From contig NC_018002.1 in the NCBI RefSeq assembly GCF_000265295.1, positions 1,674,001-1,738,000 of the forward strand: a stretch of 64,000 nucleotides of DNA, read 5' to 3'. Made by a program: the position numbers and the translations under genes. This DNA comes from Sulfurospirillum barnesii SES-3. GTDB taxonomy: Bacteria; Campylobacterota; Campylobacteria; Campylobacterales; Sulfurospirillaceae. Below the pieces are notes generated by a model, which saw only the letters and a list, made by a program, of their open reading frames with translations, ran no database searches and was not told the DNA's origin. Below, in pieces: positions 13,131 through 51,399 of this stretch (the stretch's first letter is position 1; each line of letters opens with the position of its first letter).

Positions 13131-13361
13131 TTATTTACCAGTGATTTTTGCAACCCTGTCACTTAGCTTTGCGCCAACACTTTTCCAATACGCAAGTCTT
13201 TCCGCATCAAATTTGATGGTTTGAGGATTGCTTAGGGGATTGTAATAACCAATTGTCTCAATTGATCCACCATCACGTTTTTTTCTGCTGTCTGTTACGA
13301 CAATTCTGTAAAACGGTGCTTTATTTCTACCCATACGTGTTAATCTTACAACTGTTGCCAT
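13131..13361 (-). CDS. rpsP: 30S ribosomal protein bS16
   Basis: A 76-residue protein of the 30S body. It begins [22 protein letters not shown] and continues with GYYNPLSNP, typical of bS16. An AGGAG site lies about 8 bases before the ATG. Upstream is the 34-bp palindrome that separates it from ffh. Confidence 0.96.
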
Positions 13362-13401
13362 TCTTATGGTCTCCTAATGTTTATGTTTCGTTTTTTACAA
13401 C

Positions 13402-13435
13402 TTATATTTACATGTAAGCTTACATGTAAATATAA
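13402..13435. repeat. Perfect 34-bp palindrome built from two TTACATGTAA copies
   Basis: The two arms TTATATTTACATGTAAG and CTTACATGTAAATATAA are exact reverse complements with no spacer. Each arm contains one TTACATGTAA copy (13408-13417 and 13420-13429). It occupies the 85-base ffh-rpsP gap, so as RNA it would form a long AT-rich hairpin between the two genes. It lacks a GC-rich stem or a U-tract, so it is not a typical terminator. Confidence 0.9.
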
Positions 13436-13446
13436 ATCGTCACACA

Positions 13447-14787
13447 TTAACGAAGGTGTGCGTGTTTATTTTGAGAAAGCATGTTTTGCAAATCTTGCAT
13501 TCCCTTTTTGCCTGAGAATTTTTTTGCCATTTTTGCGGCATTTCCAAATTGTTTTAAAAAGCGATTGACTTCCACTTGTGAAAGTCCTGAACCCTCAGCA
13601 ATTCTTCTTTTTCGACTGTTATTTAAAAGCTCTGGATCTTCTCTCTCTTTTTTAGTCATGGAACCTATCATCGCACGGATTCGCTTCATTTCAACCGAAT
13701 TTTCCATATCAACGTCTTGAAGCTTTCCCGCCATTTGAGACAATCCTGGGATCATCCCAATGAGTGATTTCATACTTCCAAGCTTTTTCATCTGCTCCAT
13801 TTGTTCTAAAAAGTCATTAAAGTTAAACTGACCCTTTTTAATCTTTTGGGTCATCGCTTTGGCTTGTTTTTCACTAATGATACCACTGGTCTTTTCAGCC
13901 AAAGTCTCAAGGTCACCCTCACCCATCAAACGATTGACAATACGCTCAGGGATAAAATGCTCTAAATCCGCAACTTTTTCACCCACACCGATAAATCGAA
14001 GTGGAACACTTGTTTGCTCTGCAATACCAAGAGCAACACCACCCTTACCATCGCCATCAAATTTGCTTAAAATAACACCACTTAAGGTGATTTTTTCATG
14101 AAAGGTTACCGCACTCTTAACCGCATCTTGACCCGTCATAGCGTCTGCTACATAAAAAATCTCATCAGGTGTGACTTCTTTTTTTATAGACGCTAGCTGC
14201 TCCATCAATTCTGTATCAATAGCTAAACGACCAGCCGTATCAATTAATACAACATCATAAAGCCCTTCTTTGGCTTTTTTCATTGCATTTTTAGCAATAC
14301 CTAGAGGATGGGTACTATTATCTTCAAAATACAAATCAATTTCGTTTGCTTGACACAGCTGTTTTAATTGTTCTACCGCTGCCAAACGCTGAAGATCACA
14401 GGCAACAACAAGCACTTTTTTTTGTTTTAGTGTTAAATAATTAGCTAACTTAACCGTTGTGGTTGTTTTACCACTTCCTTGTAAACCTACCATCAACACC
14501 GTTGTAGGTGGTTTTGAAGCAAAAACAAAGCCTTGCTTACCAGGAACCGTTAAAATTTCTGTTAATTGTGTCTTTAAAGAGCGTAAAAAATTGGCTTGTC
14601 CAATGCCTTTTGCTTTGGTTTCTATTTCTACTTGACGCAATAAATCTCGTACAATTTTATGGTGAACATCTGCTTTAAGAAGGGCTTTTTTTAGGTTTTC
14701 TAAGGCACTTTTTAAAGATTTTTCATCATCACTGAAACGAATTTTATTAATAGCAGATCGAAATGAATCGGTTAAAACCTCAAACAC
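13447..14787 (-). CDS. ffh: Signal recognition particle GTPase Ffh
   Basis: Ffh binds 4.5S RNA and signal peptides and targets membrane proteins to FtsY. The 446-residue protein has the N domain, a P-loop GLQGSGKT at residues 101-108, DTAGRL, SKFDGDGKGGVAL and GVGEKVADLEHF in the G domain, and a methionine-rich M domain (EQMEQMKKLGSMKSLIGMIPG) with the RNA-binding RIAEGSG. Length is normal. It heads the cluster that continues with rpsP. Confidence 0.97.
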   Translation of the reverse strand: MFEVLTDSFRSAINKIRFSDDEKSLKSALENLKKALLKADVHHKIVRDLLRQVEIETKAKGIGQANFLRSLKTQLTEILTVPGKQGFVFASKPPTTVLMVGLQGSGKTTTTVKLANYLTLKQKKVLVVACDLQRLAAVEQLKQLCQANEIDLYFEDNSTHPLGIAKNAMKKAKEGLYDVVLIDTAGRLAIDTELMEQLASIKKEVTPDEIFYVADAMTGQDAVKSAVTFHEKITLSGVILSKFDGDGKGGVALGIAEQTSVPLRFIGVGEKVADLEHFIPERIVNRLMGEGDLETLAEKTSGIISEKQAKAMTQKIKKGQFNFNDFLEQMEQMKKLGSMKSLIGMIPGLSQMAGKLQDVDMENSVEMKRIRAMIGSMTKKEREDPELLNNSRKRRIAEGSGLSQVEVNRFLKQFGNAAKMAKKFSGKKGMQDLQNMLSQNKHAHLR

Positions 14788-42010: not shown

Positions 42011-42395
42011 ACTCTTGCGTGTATACAATATCTAACAGCTCTATAAAATTTAGAGGATCACTATAGCCTGCAAATTCATCTACAATGCTAAGATCACGGG
42101 GTGATAAAATCAAATTCGTAGGAAAATACTTTACATGTAACGCTTGCGGCAATGTTGGATCTTCTCCATTAATGCTTACATGTAAATAGTTTTTAGCAAT
42201 ATGTTGATTAAATTTTGGTACACCAAAAACATCTTTTTGCATCTTAATGCAATAGGGACACCCCTCTTTTTCAAGCGTTAAAAGAATCAGTTTATTTTCC
42301 TTCAACGCTTTTTGGCGCTCCATTTCTAAAAATCCAGCTTGTAAAGAAAACACACTTAGCATAACCATCATTACGATTTGAACCCATTTTTTCAT
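42003..42395 (-). CDS. Periplasmic thioredoxin-like protein
   Basis: A 130-residue protein with a signal peptide (KKWVQIVMMVMLSVFSLQA, cleavage likely after LQA). The mature part has LEKEGCPYCIKMQKDVF with a CPYC redox motif, and a cis-proline region KYFPTNLIL. It belongs with small periplasmic thioredoxins (SoxW/DUF255-like). A role as thiol reductase or oxidase is inferred. It overlaps the DMT transporter gene by 4 bases. Two TTACATGTAA copies (42131 and 42176) encode LHV in both cases. Confidence 0.82.
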   Translation of the reverse strand: MKKWVQIVMMVMLSVFSLQAGFLEMERQKALKENKLILLTLEKEGCPYCIKMQKDVFGVPKFNQHIAKNYLHVSINGEDPTLPQALHVKYFPTNLILSPRDLSIVDEFAGYSDPLNFIELLDIVYTQEFK

Positions 42396-43282
42396 TGACG
42401 AATCACTCTCTTTTTTTGTTGAATCACTAAGCCCATTATAATAAAAATCAACCCAATAAAGGTAGAAAAAAGAATGGTTTCACCTACAAAGAAGGCGATA
42501 AACACTAAAGATAAAAAAGGTGAGATAAAAATAAGATTAGCAATTTTTGCGGTATTGGTACTTAACTTCATCGCTTGCAGCCACAGGATAAACGTAATAC
42601 CCATTTCAAAAACCCCAATATACAGTGAGCCAAAAAAACCATAGATGTTAAAGGTTAGCGGATGCGATGTCACAAGGGCGTACAGTAAAATAGCAGGAAC
42701 ACCAAAGAGAAAATTGATAAAAAGCCCAATCAAAGGGTCTACATGTAATTTGGTATTGTAAATCCAATAAAGCGACCACAATACGGTCGAAAAAAGCGCT
42801 AGAAAAACACCTGTGAGGCTTGAGAAAGAGAAATTCCAAAGATCACCGTGCGTTGAAATCACTAAAACGCCGCAGTAACACATAAGCCCTGCTAGAAAAT
42901 CATAGAGACTCAATTTCTGCTTTAAGATAAACACAGATAGATACGTCAATGTCAACGCCCACGTGTAATTAATAGGCTGTGCCTCTTGGGCAGGCAATAG
43001 CTCATAGGCTCGAAAAAGGATTAAATAATAGATAAATGGATTGATTAAACCCAACAAAGCAAGGTAGAAATAGGTTTTTTTTGAATAGGTCAAAAGCGTA
43101 TAAAACTTTTTTTGATACACCATAGCCATAAAAAAGACGCATAATGAAAAAAATGAAGCATACAGTAAAAGTTGTAACGCATCAAAATGGGCTAATGTCA
43201 GTTTAAAAGCACTCGCAACGGTTGACCAAAGTAAAACAGCAGAAATAGCAAATAAATAAGCTTTTGATTGATTTTTTTCCAA
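42392..43282 (-). CDS. EamA/DMT-superfamily transporter
   Basis: A 296-residue protein with ten hydrophobic helices in two EamA repeats. The first starts YLFAISAVLLWSTVASAFKLTLAHF, and the second has FSSLTGVFLALFSTVLWSLYWIYN. FISPFLSLVFIAFFVGE near the C-terminus is typical of the family. Members export amino acids or metabolites; the substrate cannot be read. It lies just downstream of the 5S gene in the same orientation. Confidence 0.87.
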   Translation of the reverse strand: MEKNQSKAYLFAISAVLLWSTVASAFKLTLAHFDALQLLLYASFFSLCVFFMAMVYQKKFYTLLTYSKKTYFYLALLGLINPFIYYLILFRAYELLPAQEAQPINYTWALTLTYLSVFILKQKLSLYDFLAGLMCYCGVLVISTHGDLWNFSFSSLTGVFLALFSTVLWSLYWIYNTKLHVDPLIGLFINFLFGVPAILLYALVTSHPLTFNIYGFFGSLYIGVFEMGITFILWLQAMKLSTNTAKIANLIFISPFLSLVFIAFFVGETILFSTFIGLIFIIMGLVIQQKKRVIRQ

Positions 43283-43335
43283 GAAAGACCGCCTTTGTAT
43301 AAGACGAAATGAAGGAGTAAAGTAAAAAGAATCAC

Positions 43336-43455
43336 GGAACTGGCAGCGACCTACGTTTCCATCCCAGTAAGGGAGAGTATTATCGGCGATGAAGAGCTTA
43401 GCTTCCTGGTTCGAAATGGGACAGGGCGTTTCCTCTTCTCTATAGCCACCAGAAT
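43336..43455 (-). rRNA. rrf: 5S ribosomal RNA
   Basis: The minus strand contains the conserved 5S core CCATTTCGAACCAGGAAGCTAAG-like segment and ends in a terminal helix in which CTGG pairs with CCAG. Ends are approximate to a few bases. It is the last gene of the operon. Confidence 0.9.
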
Positions 43456-43561
43456 CGTGAATTAAATCTATGTCATATTATAACGAAATAGGCTTAATTC
43501 ACCATTCTTTTGGTGATTTTAGTATTGTCTAGTCAACATCACGCTTTACACTTAATAAGGA

Positions 43562-43585
43562 AGTGAAATAGCATTATCATACGTA
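43562..43585 (-). other. 3' arm of the pre-23S processing stem
   Basis: AGTGAAAT (43562-43569), GCATT (43571-43575) and a TACG (near 43582) on the plus strand are complementary to ATTTCACT (46521-46528), AATGC (46514-46518) and CGTA (46506-46509) on the far side of the 23S gene. This is the expected RNase III stem that brackets 23S. Confidence 0.65.
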
Positions 43586-43592
43586 ATAATAT

Positions 43593-46502
<2,910 letters not shown>

Positions 46503-46821
46503 ATTCGTATTCTAATGCACATTTCACTCCCTTATTAAATGTAAACCATCTAACAAGTTGTAAATTGTTTTTTTTGCGTTTTGTTGACTTTGACAATAAT
46601 AAATTAAATAACATCTTTATGTTCTTTCACCAGATAGCAAAGCTATCTTAAAGAACCAAACCTAAAGTACAACGCAAAGCATCGTATTCTAAATTGTAGA
46701 ACATAAACTTAGACTAAAAAGTCTAATATAAAAACAACTAAAATTGTTCTTATATTAGACGTTGTGTCCTCATTTTCACTAACAATGTCTCTTAGCAATC
46801 TTTCACCATCTCTCTAAAAAA
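46503..46821 (-). other. Spacer between tRNA-Ala and 23S
   Basis: This 319-base spacer has no gene. It holds the 5' arm of the 23S processing stem (46506-46528), one copy of the duplicated 66-bp boxA/hairpin element (46621-46686), and an 11-bp perfect stem at 46721-46731/46750-46760 that overlaps a smaller alternative hairpin, AGACT/AGTCT, at 46711-46724. Confidence 0.7.
46621..46686 (-). repeat. Duplicated rRNA leader element, copy ahead of 23S
   Basis: Sixty-six bases that match 48579-48644 with three differences. On the transcribed strand it has TTTGGTTCTTTAAG, close to a boxA antitermination site, directly followed by the hairpin AGATAGC-TTT-GCTATCT and closed by GAAAGAAC, which can pair with GTTCTTT. 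The copy number and positions, ahead of 16S and of 23S, mirror E. coli rrn antiterminator sites. Confidence 0.8.
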
Positions 46822-46824
46822 TGG

Positions 46825-46897
46825 TGGAGAATAGCGGGATCGAACCGCTGACCTCCTGCGTGCAAAGCAGGCGCTCTCCCAGCTGAGCTAATTCCCC
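46825..46897 (-). tRNA. tRNA-Ala, anticodon TGC
   Basis: The minus strand has acceptor GGGGAAT/ATTCTCC, D-arm GCTC/GAGC, anticodon loop TTTGCAC with TGC, and T-arm GCGG-TTCGATC-CCGC. Discriminator A and an encoded CCA (46824-46822) are present. It lies in the 16S-23S spacer, the usual place. Confidence 0.97.
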
Positions 46898-46901
46898 ATG
46901 G

Positions 46902-46975
46902 TGGGCTTAAGAGGACTCGAACCTCTGACCTTACCCTTATCAGGGGTACGCTCTAACCACCTGAGCTATAAGCCC
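46902..46975 (-). tRNA. tRNA-Ile, anticodon GAT
   Basis: The minus strand has acceptor GGGCTTA/TAAGCCC, D-arm GCTC/GAGC, anticodon stem ACCCC/GGGGT-type (here CCCCT-GATAAGG) with anticodon GAT, and T-loop TTCGAGT. A CCA is encoded (46901-46899). It follows 16S and precedes tRNA-Ala by about 4 bases. Confidence 0.97.
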
Positions 46976-47064
46976 CTTTTTCATTCAATCTCTCAAAACT
47001 AAATAAGCTTCCCTAGACAAGTGCTCGCCGGAGCACCATTGTGAGATAGTGCCCCTATACTCTA

Positions 47065-48575
<1,511 letters not shown>

Positions 48576-48908
48576 GTTGTTCTTTCAACAGATAGCAAAG
48601 CTATCTTAAAGAACCAAACCTAAAGCACAACGCAAAGCGTCGTAAACTTTAATGTCCTTGACATATGAAGTGTTTTCTTCAATGACTTAAAGTATCTCTT
48701 TTTTTTCAAAGAGTTGATAATCTCTTTTTTCGCGTCACTGACTAAGGTCGCTTATTTAGATTTCAAAGATTGAATTTGACATTGTTAAAATGGTAATGAA
48801 CTTGAAGCAAATCCCCTACTTTGGGTACTTCTCTTTAACCCCGTTCTCTCAAACGAGGACGAAATTATATACCCATGTCCCTTAAAAGAAGATTAAAAAA
48901 TGTGGGGG
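48576..48908 (-). promoter_or_regulatory. rRNA operon leader and promoter region
   Basis: This 333-base gap holds no gene. On the minus strand a TATAAT (48869-48864, in GGTATATAATTTCG) lies about 290 bases before 16S and is the best rrn promoter candidate. Nearer 16S is the second copy of the 66-bp boxA/hairpin element. The rest is AT-rich leader without other recognisable features. Confidence 0.55.
48579..48644 (-). repeat. Duplicated rRNA leader element, copy ahead of 16S
   Basis: Matches 46621-46686 with three mismatches. It ends a few bases before the 16S start. Its GTTCTTT/AAAGAAC outer stem and AGATAGC/GCTATCT inner stem are identical in both copies. Confidence 0.8.
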
Positions 48909-49595
48909 CTATAAAATGTGTGTATAACCTGTTTCTGGTTCAATTGCAATGACAATATTTAAAGTCCCATCTGACAAAGTGATACGGCATTGATTTATGA
49001 TTAAACGAGGGAATCCCACATTAATCTCTCCAGCTGGATTGTTATTTGTGATATAACTATTGTATGGTCTTCCTATTTCATCAAATTGAATATGTGTTAT
49101 TCCACCTCGACAACCGCCTGCAAATGTGATAGTTTGAATGCCAAATTGAGTTTTTAAACGCATTTCTTTCATAGATTGTTCATCTTCTACATGTAAAGTA
49201 TTATTATATCCTCCACTAAGATATTGATTTTGATTAAGAGGGTTTCGTGCTAATTCTGTTAAGTTAGGAAGATGTGTATAATTTGGTCTGTCCGAATAAA
49301 TAGAATAAGCCCATTCATTATCATAATTTTTTATGGGTGGTAATACATTTGTGAATGAGAGATTTTGAAAAAATCTTATTTGCCAACGTCCTTGAAACCA
49401 ATTGGCATCATTACTATTGAAATGATTATCCTGCATCGCTAAATGTTGCGTATACCTTATGTGACTCACCACTTGGTCGGCAGCTTCTCGAAGGGGATTG
49501 CGTACAAAGCTTGAGGCTACCATATAAGAAAGAATGCCTACGATAACAATCACGAATACAAGCTCAATCATCGTAAATGCTTTTTTCACGCTCAC
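48909..49595 (-). CDS. Type IV pilin-like (pseudopilin) protein
   Basis: A 228-residue protein with a class III signal: KKAFTMIELVFVIVIVGILSYMVA, where Phe after the cleavage point and Glu at +5 are typical, though Ala rather than Gly is at -1. The mature globular part (about 200 residues) has single cysteines in GGCRGG and NQCRIT that could form a disulfide. It may belong to a type II secretion or pilus-like machine. No other pilus gene is nearby. It lies 7 bases after the GT39-like gene. Confidence 0.82.
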   Translation of the reverse strand: MSVKKAFTMIELVFVIVIVGILSYMVASSFVRNPLREAADQVVSHIRYTQHLAMQDNHFNSNDANWFQGRWQIRFFQNLSFTNVLPPIKNYDNEWAYSIYSDRPNYTHLPNLTELARNPLNQNQYLSGGYNNTLHVEDEQSMKEMRLKTQFGIQTITFAGGCRGGITHIQFDEIGRPYNSYITNNNPAGEINVGFPRLIINQCRITLSDGTLNIVIAIEPETGYTHIL

Positions 49596-49602
49596 CTCTT
49601 TT

Positions 49603-50793
49603 TTATCCTACAGGGTAAAGATAGAATGTTTTGACAGTTTTACCATAATAGGCAATATCAATCTGTTCAAACCCTTCGTCTATCTCTTTTTTACTTGTTA
49701 ATTTATAATCTCCACCTTTTTTGATGGCATAAAATTCCAAACGTAACGCCAGTTTATCATCACGAAGGATAACGTTATTAATACCCCTATTTTTAAGCTC
49801 TTCTGCCAACTCTTTTGCAATATGATAATTCACCGCAAAATGTTTAGATGGATCATCCATAAGAAGATAAAGTGGTTTATGAAAAAAGCTTGCCATAGTA
49901 TTGATAAAAAGAGAACACATTACAAATGTAAAAACCACGGTATGTAACTTACGAAATTCTGGCAATCGTACACGATAACTGTTAAAAAAGACTTTGACCA
50001 TTAAAGGAATAGATAAGACAACAAAAGGTGCAAAATCTTCTAGCAATAAGCGTTGCCTCAAAGAAAGGAGTAAAGAGACTACCAATGAAAAAAATGAGAT
50101 ATACCATAAAAGATTTTTTTCTTCCTTGATCAAAATACGATACATAGAATAAACAAAATAAATGAATAGAAATGGCGAGAAAATCGCTGCATAAACACCT
50201 AATGTATCCACAAAATAGCCTTTTGGTTTTCCACCAGTATCAAATCCATACAGATACATCGAAGCTCCAAATAAGACCAATGTCAAAATAAGCAAGTCCG
50301 TTTTTTGCTTAAAGAGTGCATAACAAAAAAGTGCTACATAAAAAATTGCAAAAGAGTTATCAATAAAAAGTGTTCCTACCAACAGAAGGTGCGAAAGAAC
50401 TTTGTGTTCTTGAAGATAAAGGTAGGTGAACAATAAACTCAAAAATACCACAATGATACTACTATTAACCAATAAAGCAATACTGTTGACTCCTGGCAAA
50501 AGAGCATAAATACTCAGACTCAAAAACCTGTCAATTCTTTGTTTTAAAAAGAGCTTACTGATTTTATAGAGCAAGAGCATTGAGGCTAAATAAAACAAAA
50601 TAAAGGGTAAGCGCAATGCCAAATCATTTTGCCCTAAGAGTTTGGTCGATAAAACTGCCACATAGTGAACCAAAGAGTCACCGTTAAAAAAAATCTGTGC
50701 TTCATCGTAACTAATGGAAAGTACTTGCGTCTCATAGACTAAAAGCGTGCTACTAAAAAGTAGCAAAAAGAGTAAATAAAGTCTCTCTTTCAT
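49603..50793 (-). CDS. GT39-like (dolichyl-phosphate-mannose mannosyltransferase type) membrane protein
   Basis: A 396-residue protein with about ten hydrophobic helices. The N-terminus LLFLLLFSSTLLVYETQVLSISYDEAQIFF has an acidic DE in the first external loop, and LALRLPFILFYLASMLLLYKISKLFL follows, typical of the GT39/ArnT/PMT fold. It may add a sugar from a lipid carrier to a lipid or protein. The acceptor is unknown. It overlaps pabA by 4 bases and precedes the pseudopilin gene. Confidence 0.72.
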   Translation of the reverse strand: MKERLYLLFLLLFSSTLLVYETQVLSISYDEAQIFFNGDSLVHYVAVLSTKLLGQNDLALRLPFILFYLASMLLLYKISKLFLKQRIDRFLSLSIYALLPGVNSIALLVNSSIIVVFLSLLFTYLYLQEHKVLSHLLLVGTLFIDNSFAIFYVALFCYALFKQKTDLLILTLVLFGASMYLYGFDTGGKPKGYFVDTLGVYAAIFSPFLFIYFVYSMYRILIKEEKNLLWYISFFSLVVSLLLSLRQRLLLEDFAPFVVLSIPLMVKVFFNSYRVRLPEFRKLHTVVFTFVMCSLFINTMASFFHKPLYLLMDDPSKHFAVNYHIAKELAEELKNRGINNVILRDDKLALRLEFYAIKKGGDYKLTSKKEIDEGFEQIDIAYYGKTVKTFYLYPVG

Positions 50794-51359
50794 AGTTTTA
50801 AAAAATTATTTAAAATAGCATGACCGTGTTCACTCAAAATGGATTCTGGGTGAAACTGCACACCATAAATGGGTTGATCTTTGATTTGAAGTGCCATAAT
50901 TTCGTGGTCATCGGTACTATATGCTGTAGGGATAACACATGCTGGAAGATTATCTTGCTCAACAATAAGTGAATGATACCGTGTGGTGGTAAAGGATTCA
51001 GGTAATCCATTAAAAAGGCAACTGTTTTGAAGCTGTTTGGTTGTAGAGGTTTTCCCATGCATCATACGTTGTGCCCGTACAACTTTTCCACCATAGGCCT
51101 GAGCGATAGCTTGATGACCTAAGCAAATACCCAAAATAGGAATTTTCCCGCCAAAATGTTTAATCACTTCCAAACTCACCCCTGCTTCATTAGGCGTCGC
51201 AGGACCTGGAGAGATAATAATTTTTTCTGGGTGTAACGCTTCTATCTCTTCAACACTCAGTTCATCATTGCGAATGACTTTTAAATCTGCACCAAGTTCC
51301 AGGCAATATTGCACGATGTTATAGGTGAAACTGTCATAATTGTCTATCATTAAAACCAT
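50790..51359 (-). CDS. pabA: Glutamine amidotransferase component of aminodeoxychorismate/anthranilate synthase
   Basis: A 189-residue class I glutaminase that feeds ammonia to PabB or TrpE. It has MIDNYDSFTYNIVQY, IISPGPATPNEAG, LGICLGHQAIA with the nucleophile Cys, and YGVQFHPESI with the catalytic His and Glu. It is not next to trpE, and pabB in this window lacks its own glutaminase, so pabA is the likelier role. It may serve both enzymes. Confidence 0.87.
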   Translation of the reverse strand: MVLMIDNYDSFTYNIVQYCLELGADLKVIRNDELSVEEIEALHPEKIIISPGPATPNEAGVSLEVIKHFGGKIPILGICLGHQAIAQAYGGKVVRAQRMMHGKTSTTKQLQNSCLFNGLPESFTTTRYHSLIVEQDNLPACVIPTAYSTDDHEIMALQIKDQPIYGVQFHPESILSEHGHAILNNFLKL

Positions 51360-51399
51360 AATGCTTATCCTTGCACGCTACTTTTACATGTAAAGGATG

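Follow-up and report, generated by a model that had tools for sequence, protein, structure and literature searches.

A perfect palindrome between ffh and rpsP in Sulfurospirillum barnesii consists of two adjacent copies of a hyperabundant 10-bp motif, possibly a self-DNA recognition sequence

What is a perfect palindrome doing in the gap between two genes, and does its explanation lie in that gap at all? The question is raised by positions 13402-13435 of a 64,000-nucleotide stretch of the Sulfurospirillum barnesii SES-3 chromosome, referred to here as the window. Both neighbouring genes are on the minus strand. The upstream gene, ffh (13447-14787), encodes the signal recognition particle protein and is identified by its open reading frame, by its relatives in tblastn searches (the closest of which are in Sulfurospirillum) and by matches to annotated ffh in plasmid records. 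The downstream open reading frame (13131-13361), which has an AGGAG about 10 nt upstream of its ATG, is presumably rpsP, the gene for ribosomal protein S16; the assignment is taken from the common gene order ffh-rpsP-rimM-trmD and from the name used in an earlier note on this DNA. A direct rereading of the gap agrees with the description given in that note, a 34-bp palindrome with 17-bp arms, no mismatch and no spacer: TTATATTTACATGTAAG (13402-13418) and CTTACATGTAAATATAA (13419-13435) are exact reverse complements of each other, and an inverted-repeat search extends the palindrome to arms of 22 bp with a 91% match. Also as described, the palindrome contains two copies of one motif, exact TTACATGTAA at 13408-13417 and at 13420-13429, which are 12 bp apart from start to start with 2 bp in between; matching flanks make up the rest. 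However, the label "head-to-head" that had been attached to the two copies is meaningless, because each copy is by itself a perfect palindrome.

The motif is found far beyond this gap. There are 33 exact copies in the window, or 40 if up to one mismatch is allowed, compared with 4.2 in shuffles, and the genome (one contig of 2,510,109 bp) has 1230 copies, compared with 6 of the reversed pattern. In 464 kb sampled across the chromosome, 220 sites were observed where a Markov model predicts 1.15, and all of the sampled regions contain the motif. A short word over-represented hundreds-fold and genome-wide is also what characterizes the known uptake sequences, the DUS of Neisseriaceae and the USS of Pasteurellaceae. 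In the same 464-kb sample, variants at inner positions 2-5 occur at the level of chance. Outside the core, there is a preference for cTTTACATGTAAAg and then for AT-rich bases 4-9 bp out, and these flanks are alike within and between genes. With gene calls from a simple in-house ORF finder, 143 of the 220 sites (65%) fall within genes, where they encode LHV or xTC and are distributed over the full length of the gene; the other 35% are intergenic. The density of sites is 0.34 per kb in coding DNA, compared with 12.5 per kb at 3-10 bp past stop codons; intergenic DNA has 2.3 per kb overall and 5.7 per kb between convergent genes. Placement is, in other words, permissive.

Some stretches hold few copies or none. 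The longest motif-free gap of the window (42176-51383, 9.2 kb) includes the rRNA operon, and copies are few in a large hybrid non-ribosomal peptide/polyketide synthase cluster of about 10 kb elsewhere in the chromosome (L087, G000:C1:720001-740000). A 20-kb stretch that is almost motif-free (L099, G000:C1:2280001-2300000; 34% GC) contains a mobile element that has integrated there and carries a TrwC relaxase, a tyrosine integrase, a phage Gp157-like gene, DUF932 and type I restriction-modification genes, and the roughly 18 kb up to these restriction-modification genes contain no TTACATGTAA. In this one mobile element sampled, the motif is missing from recently acquired DNA, as DUS and USS are. 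As a separate observation, GATC (595 observed, 1498 expected), GGCC, CGCG, CCGG and GATATC are strongly depleted in the window and in 20 further loci (L081-L100), which suggests the presence of several restriction systems.

Comparison with relatives reveals that the sites stay unchanged within DNA that varies more. In G008, G014 and G015, where nucleotide identity is about 80%, exact sites number 22 of 23, 21 of 26 and 19 of 29, respectively. In coding DNA, the identity of the core is 98, 96 and 94% in these three motif-rich genomes, compared with 72, 71 and 74% for its flanks and 78, 77 and 80% for random coding DNA. The motif is more conserved than its surroundings and occupies permissive positions of the core genome, again as DUS and USS do. 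The process that holds the sites can be lost: in two motif-poor relatives at the same level of identity, none of 27 sites (G009) and 3 of 20 (G021) are exact. The core in G009, at 72%, is no more conserved than its flanks, at 71%, and consequently all constraint is gone.

Copies were counted in roughly 190 genomes and in some more beyond these. Most Sulfurospirillum genomes have 400-1500 copies (the genus and species names behind the genome handles used here are inferred), and the density in Sulfurospirillum and some relatives is about 500 copies per Mb. Beyond the family of Sulfurospirillum, hyperabundance of the exact 10-mer is confined to part of one other family (f17). Whole genera of that family have about 200-1061 copies (340 in G154), and there are nearly none in most of a Sulfurimonas-like genus and in all of a second genus (g61). 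The GC content of the rich genomes in this family ranges from 34 to 54%; since a rich member (G309) is at 54%, base composition cannot explain the abundance of the motif. Several of the "poor" genomes use variants that share its CATG centre, namely TTACATGTMA, YTACATGTAR (in G025) and TATCATGATA; the variant in G024 is cTTACATGTAAg, and G021 has TTACATGTCA alongside TTACATGTAA. For TATCATGATA, 22 copies were observed in 208 kb of G026, where 1.0 is expected. Independently of this count, there are 15 copies in L024 and L025, where 0.1 is expected, although these are the same locus in two genomes and their counts are partly dependent. At these two loci, TATCATGATA has a density of 0.57 per kb within genes and 2.5 per kb in intergenic DNA, a pattern like that of TTACATGTAA in the S. 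barnesii genome. No substitute word was found among 500 kb of G009.

These findings lead to the hypothesis that the palindrome pairs neighbouring copies of a 10-bp watermark (cTTTACATGTAAAg) found throughout the genome, and that this watermark is most likely a self-DNA recognition sequence of the uptake type, a reading to which we assign a probability of roughly 0.45. In such a system, natural transformation would involve a DNA-binding receptor with a preference for motif-bearing DNA. Recombination with this DNA would repair mutated copies and would also seed new ones at permissive places, for example, the first bases past stop codons. A drive-type process of this kind, biased uptake plus recombination, is favoured because it is less plausible that each of over 1000 redundant sites is under strong selection of its own.

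Neisserial DUS are 97% identical where the surrounding DNA is about 85% identical, they occupy permissive core regions, are absent from acquired genes and form inverted pairs behind genes (PMC2397512; PMC1852404), and their dialects share a fixed core (PMC3630211). The motif resembles them in its core of about 10 bp, its hundreds to thousands of genic and intergenic copies, its conservation above the surroundings, its permissive positions, its absence from acquired DNA, its inverted pairs and its fixed-core dialects, and these traits match neisserial uptake sequences better than they match transcription-factor sites or the methylase-linked HIP1. However, TTACATGTAA is perfectly palindromic and known uptake sequences are not, which counts against the uptake reading; in addition, its pairs mostly lack T-tails, and it belongs to a different phylum. 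The USS of Pasteurellaceae are like the motif in that a genome has some 1000-1500 copies of them, that the bases flanking their core are AT-rich and that inverted pairs lie near gene ends, but they are asymmetric and unrelated in sequence. It is tentatively proposed that the palindromic watermark, together with its CATG-centred dialects, represents the first system of the uptake-sequence type in the phylum, present in parts of two Campylobacterales families and read by a putative symmetric receptor.

Competence genes were considered as candidates for this receptor. ComEC is found whether a genome is rich or poor in the motif. Among the Sulfurospirillum genomes searched (G000-G022), only G015 has a true ComEA, so that neither of these two uptake genes tracks the motif, and ATPases of PF00437 (T2SS/T4P-type) are present in all genomes searched. 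No reader protein emerged from the few gene families compared, which also weighs against the uptake reading. A T2SSE-type ATPase has an in-frame TAG in motif-poor G009 (L277, G009:C1:240531-241331), but it is broken also in motif-rich G008 (L278) and was rejected as the reader; it adjoins cheV-cheA-cheW, in a chemotaxis/housekeeping locus. We know of no counterpart of ComP, the Neisseria receptor, and of no uptake assay for TTACATGTAA, nor are we aware of any demonstration of transformation in Sulfurospirillum. A search of the open-access literature, with subscription papers and preprints outside its scope, found no previous description of the motif. Pairs of the motif on viral contigs were also considered and set aside; the 32 matches are of mixed GC and have no host-like density, and they are probably unrelated operators.

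A perfect palindrome suggests a binder with two-fold symmetry. It is conceivable, if rather doubtful, that the motif is instead bound by an abundant protein of the nucleoid type that organises the chromosome, with selection for binding keeping the sites in place and the pairs serving as strong points. This would agree with a motif that is spread over the whole of the sampled chromosome, is sharp and decays once its maintenance is lost, and the dialects could follow a changing protein. However, each of more than 1000 redundant sites would need strong selection in the face of near-saturated synonymous divergence. Furthermore, the stretches that were sampled reveal no bias by domain, and no candidate protein was found.

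HIP1 (GCGATCGC) of cyanobacteria is also a hyperabundant palindrome and is tied to methylases (PMC4390886). By analogy, a DNA methylase recognizing some portion of the motif could, together with biased repair, create and maintain the copies, an explanation that we regard as unlikely. HIP1 and the motif are alike in occurring in coding and non-coding DNA, in their patchy loss and in having alternative forms, and the motif includes CATG and ACATGT. Nevertheless, neither of these inner words is enriched outside the motif. The alternatives to HIP1 track methylases of new specificity, whereas the variants of the motif keep the CATG centre and do not follow the three methylase families tested: PF02086 is missing in several motif-rich genomes, PF01555 is missing in others, and PF13651 is absent nearly everywhere. 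Within these three families, a set that excludes type I, Eco57I-type and C5 methylases, the presence of a methylase does not coincide with abundance of the motif. Finally, the HIP1 model depends on MutS1/MutL repair, which Campylobacterales are not known to have.

There remains the gap itself, for which the earlier note had raised the possibility of a long RNA hairpin. This proposal is now strongly supported. In the ffh-rpsP transcript of S. barnesii, a stem-loop (H2, 13397-13440, minus strand) has a stem of about 20 bp and a z of -5.7. A small stem-loop (H1, CACACCTTCGTTAATGTGTG, 13441-13460, minus strand) overlaps the ffh stop codon and has undergone a compensatory change from C-G to U-A among relatives. 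Of the 28 pairs in the two hairpins, 8 have changed in both partners and still pair (23 distinct sequences), and there are 21 such cells compared with 9.1 in shuffles; slid controls have only 1-3 such pairs. One pair proceeds from A-U to G-U to G-C across G014, G015 and G009/G020, and double changes are seen in G008 and G021. The gap is readable in about 20 members of the genus, and all of them have the hairpin; the loss among close relatives that the earlier note would have taken as evidence against the element was not seen. The hairpin is mismatch-free in S. barnesii, in the S. multivorans group (G004, G008, G019) and in G002, and in most relatives it is imperfect, with conserved U-C and C-A mismatches. 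It outlasts the exact motif through compensatory changes in G009, G020 and G021, and it is also present in a second genus (L021). The compensatory changes and this survival after the decay of the motif show that selection acts on the structure of the hairpin, whose inner half is, in motif-rich species, kept to the motif as well.

Such persistence might be taken to mean that the palindrome is nothing other than a local regulatory RNA hairpin, of the rpsP leader or the ffh 3' end, and that its likeness to the genome-wide motif is secondary. This is improbable, given that each half exactly matches a motif with 1230 occurrences and that the same pairing recurs behind unrelated genes. Furthermore, in the lineage that uses TATCATGATA (L024 and L025), a strong hairpin is found behind ffh, and its tip follows the dialect. 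Since the motif is genus-wide, strongly maintained, has dialects and is genic in two thirds of cases, its explanation is not local to ffh-rpsP. A known RNA family, such as a ribosomal-protein leader, was also considered and rejected, as there is no Rfam match at the gap in the window or at nine related loci. In other Sulfurospirillaceae and in Sulfuricurvum, the DNA just downstream of ffh (L012, L015, L018, L019, L020, L023 and L036) has no hairpin; in its place are a TATAAT that resembles a promoter and, near AATCCCTCTGTGATTGTAAG, a conserved block, and Rfam, searched with all of these loci but L018, gives no match at L012, L015, L019, L020, L023 or L036.

The search for further paired copies that the earlier note had recommended returned 51 pairs of TTACATGTAA no more than 20 bp apart genome-wide, compared with 0 for the reversed control and about 13 expected from random placement of 1230 sites, an excess of about four times. 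Many of these pairs are perfect hairpins, for example, TTACATGTAAGGAAAAATCCTTACATGTAA, and those inspected lie mostly 3-20 bp past a stop codon, as does the pair behind ffh. T-runs after the paired hairpins are rare (5 of 23); inverted pairs that serve as T-tailed intrinsic terminators, a common but not defining trait of DUS and USS, are not what is found here. Palindromes of the REP/BIME type are likewise often found behind genes, and they too can form RNA hairpins. REPs are longer than TTACATGTAA, whose conservation is limited to 10-14 bp. They are also extragenic (PMC2817692), in contrast to a motif with two thirds of its copies in genes.

It is very improbable that the motif is a transcription-factor operator, or that its pairs are intrinsic terminators made of paired operators, since, although 35% of the sites are intergenic and enriched behind genes, 65% are genic and spread along the gene, 1230 copies are far above the size of a regulon, and no T-run follows the stem. 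For the focal palindrome, where the tail past the stem is ATATAAGTTGTAAAA and no terminator-like match was obtained, a terminator in the usual sense was rejected. Its use as a double protein-binding site, which the earlier note had also raised, is possible because each half is one of the roughly 1230 genome-wide copies. If the motif is an uptake-type sequence, two copies that come to lie side by side behind a gene, as at ffh, would provide a ready stem-loop. The one at ffh would then have been kept as an intercistronic RNA hairpin, probably protecting the ffh end or separating it from the rpsP messages.

Neisseriaceae are known to have hyperabundant self-marking sequences with dialects, and a simpler form is described for Pasteurellaceae, for which, to our knowledge, the reader protein is still not known. 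A palindromic counterpart in two Campylobacterales families, with its clear losses and changes of dialect, would offer dozens of natural events of gain and loss, and the gene content of rich, poor and dialect genomes should expose the reader protein. The system also bears on how close copies of a marker are converted into RNA hairpins, as the ffh-rpsP hairpin persists through both dialect change and loss. For genetic work in these hard-to-transform organisms, adding the motif to donor DNA may help.
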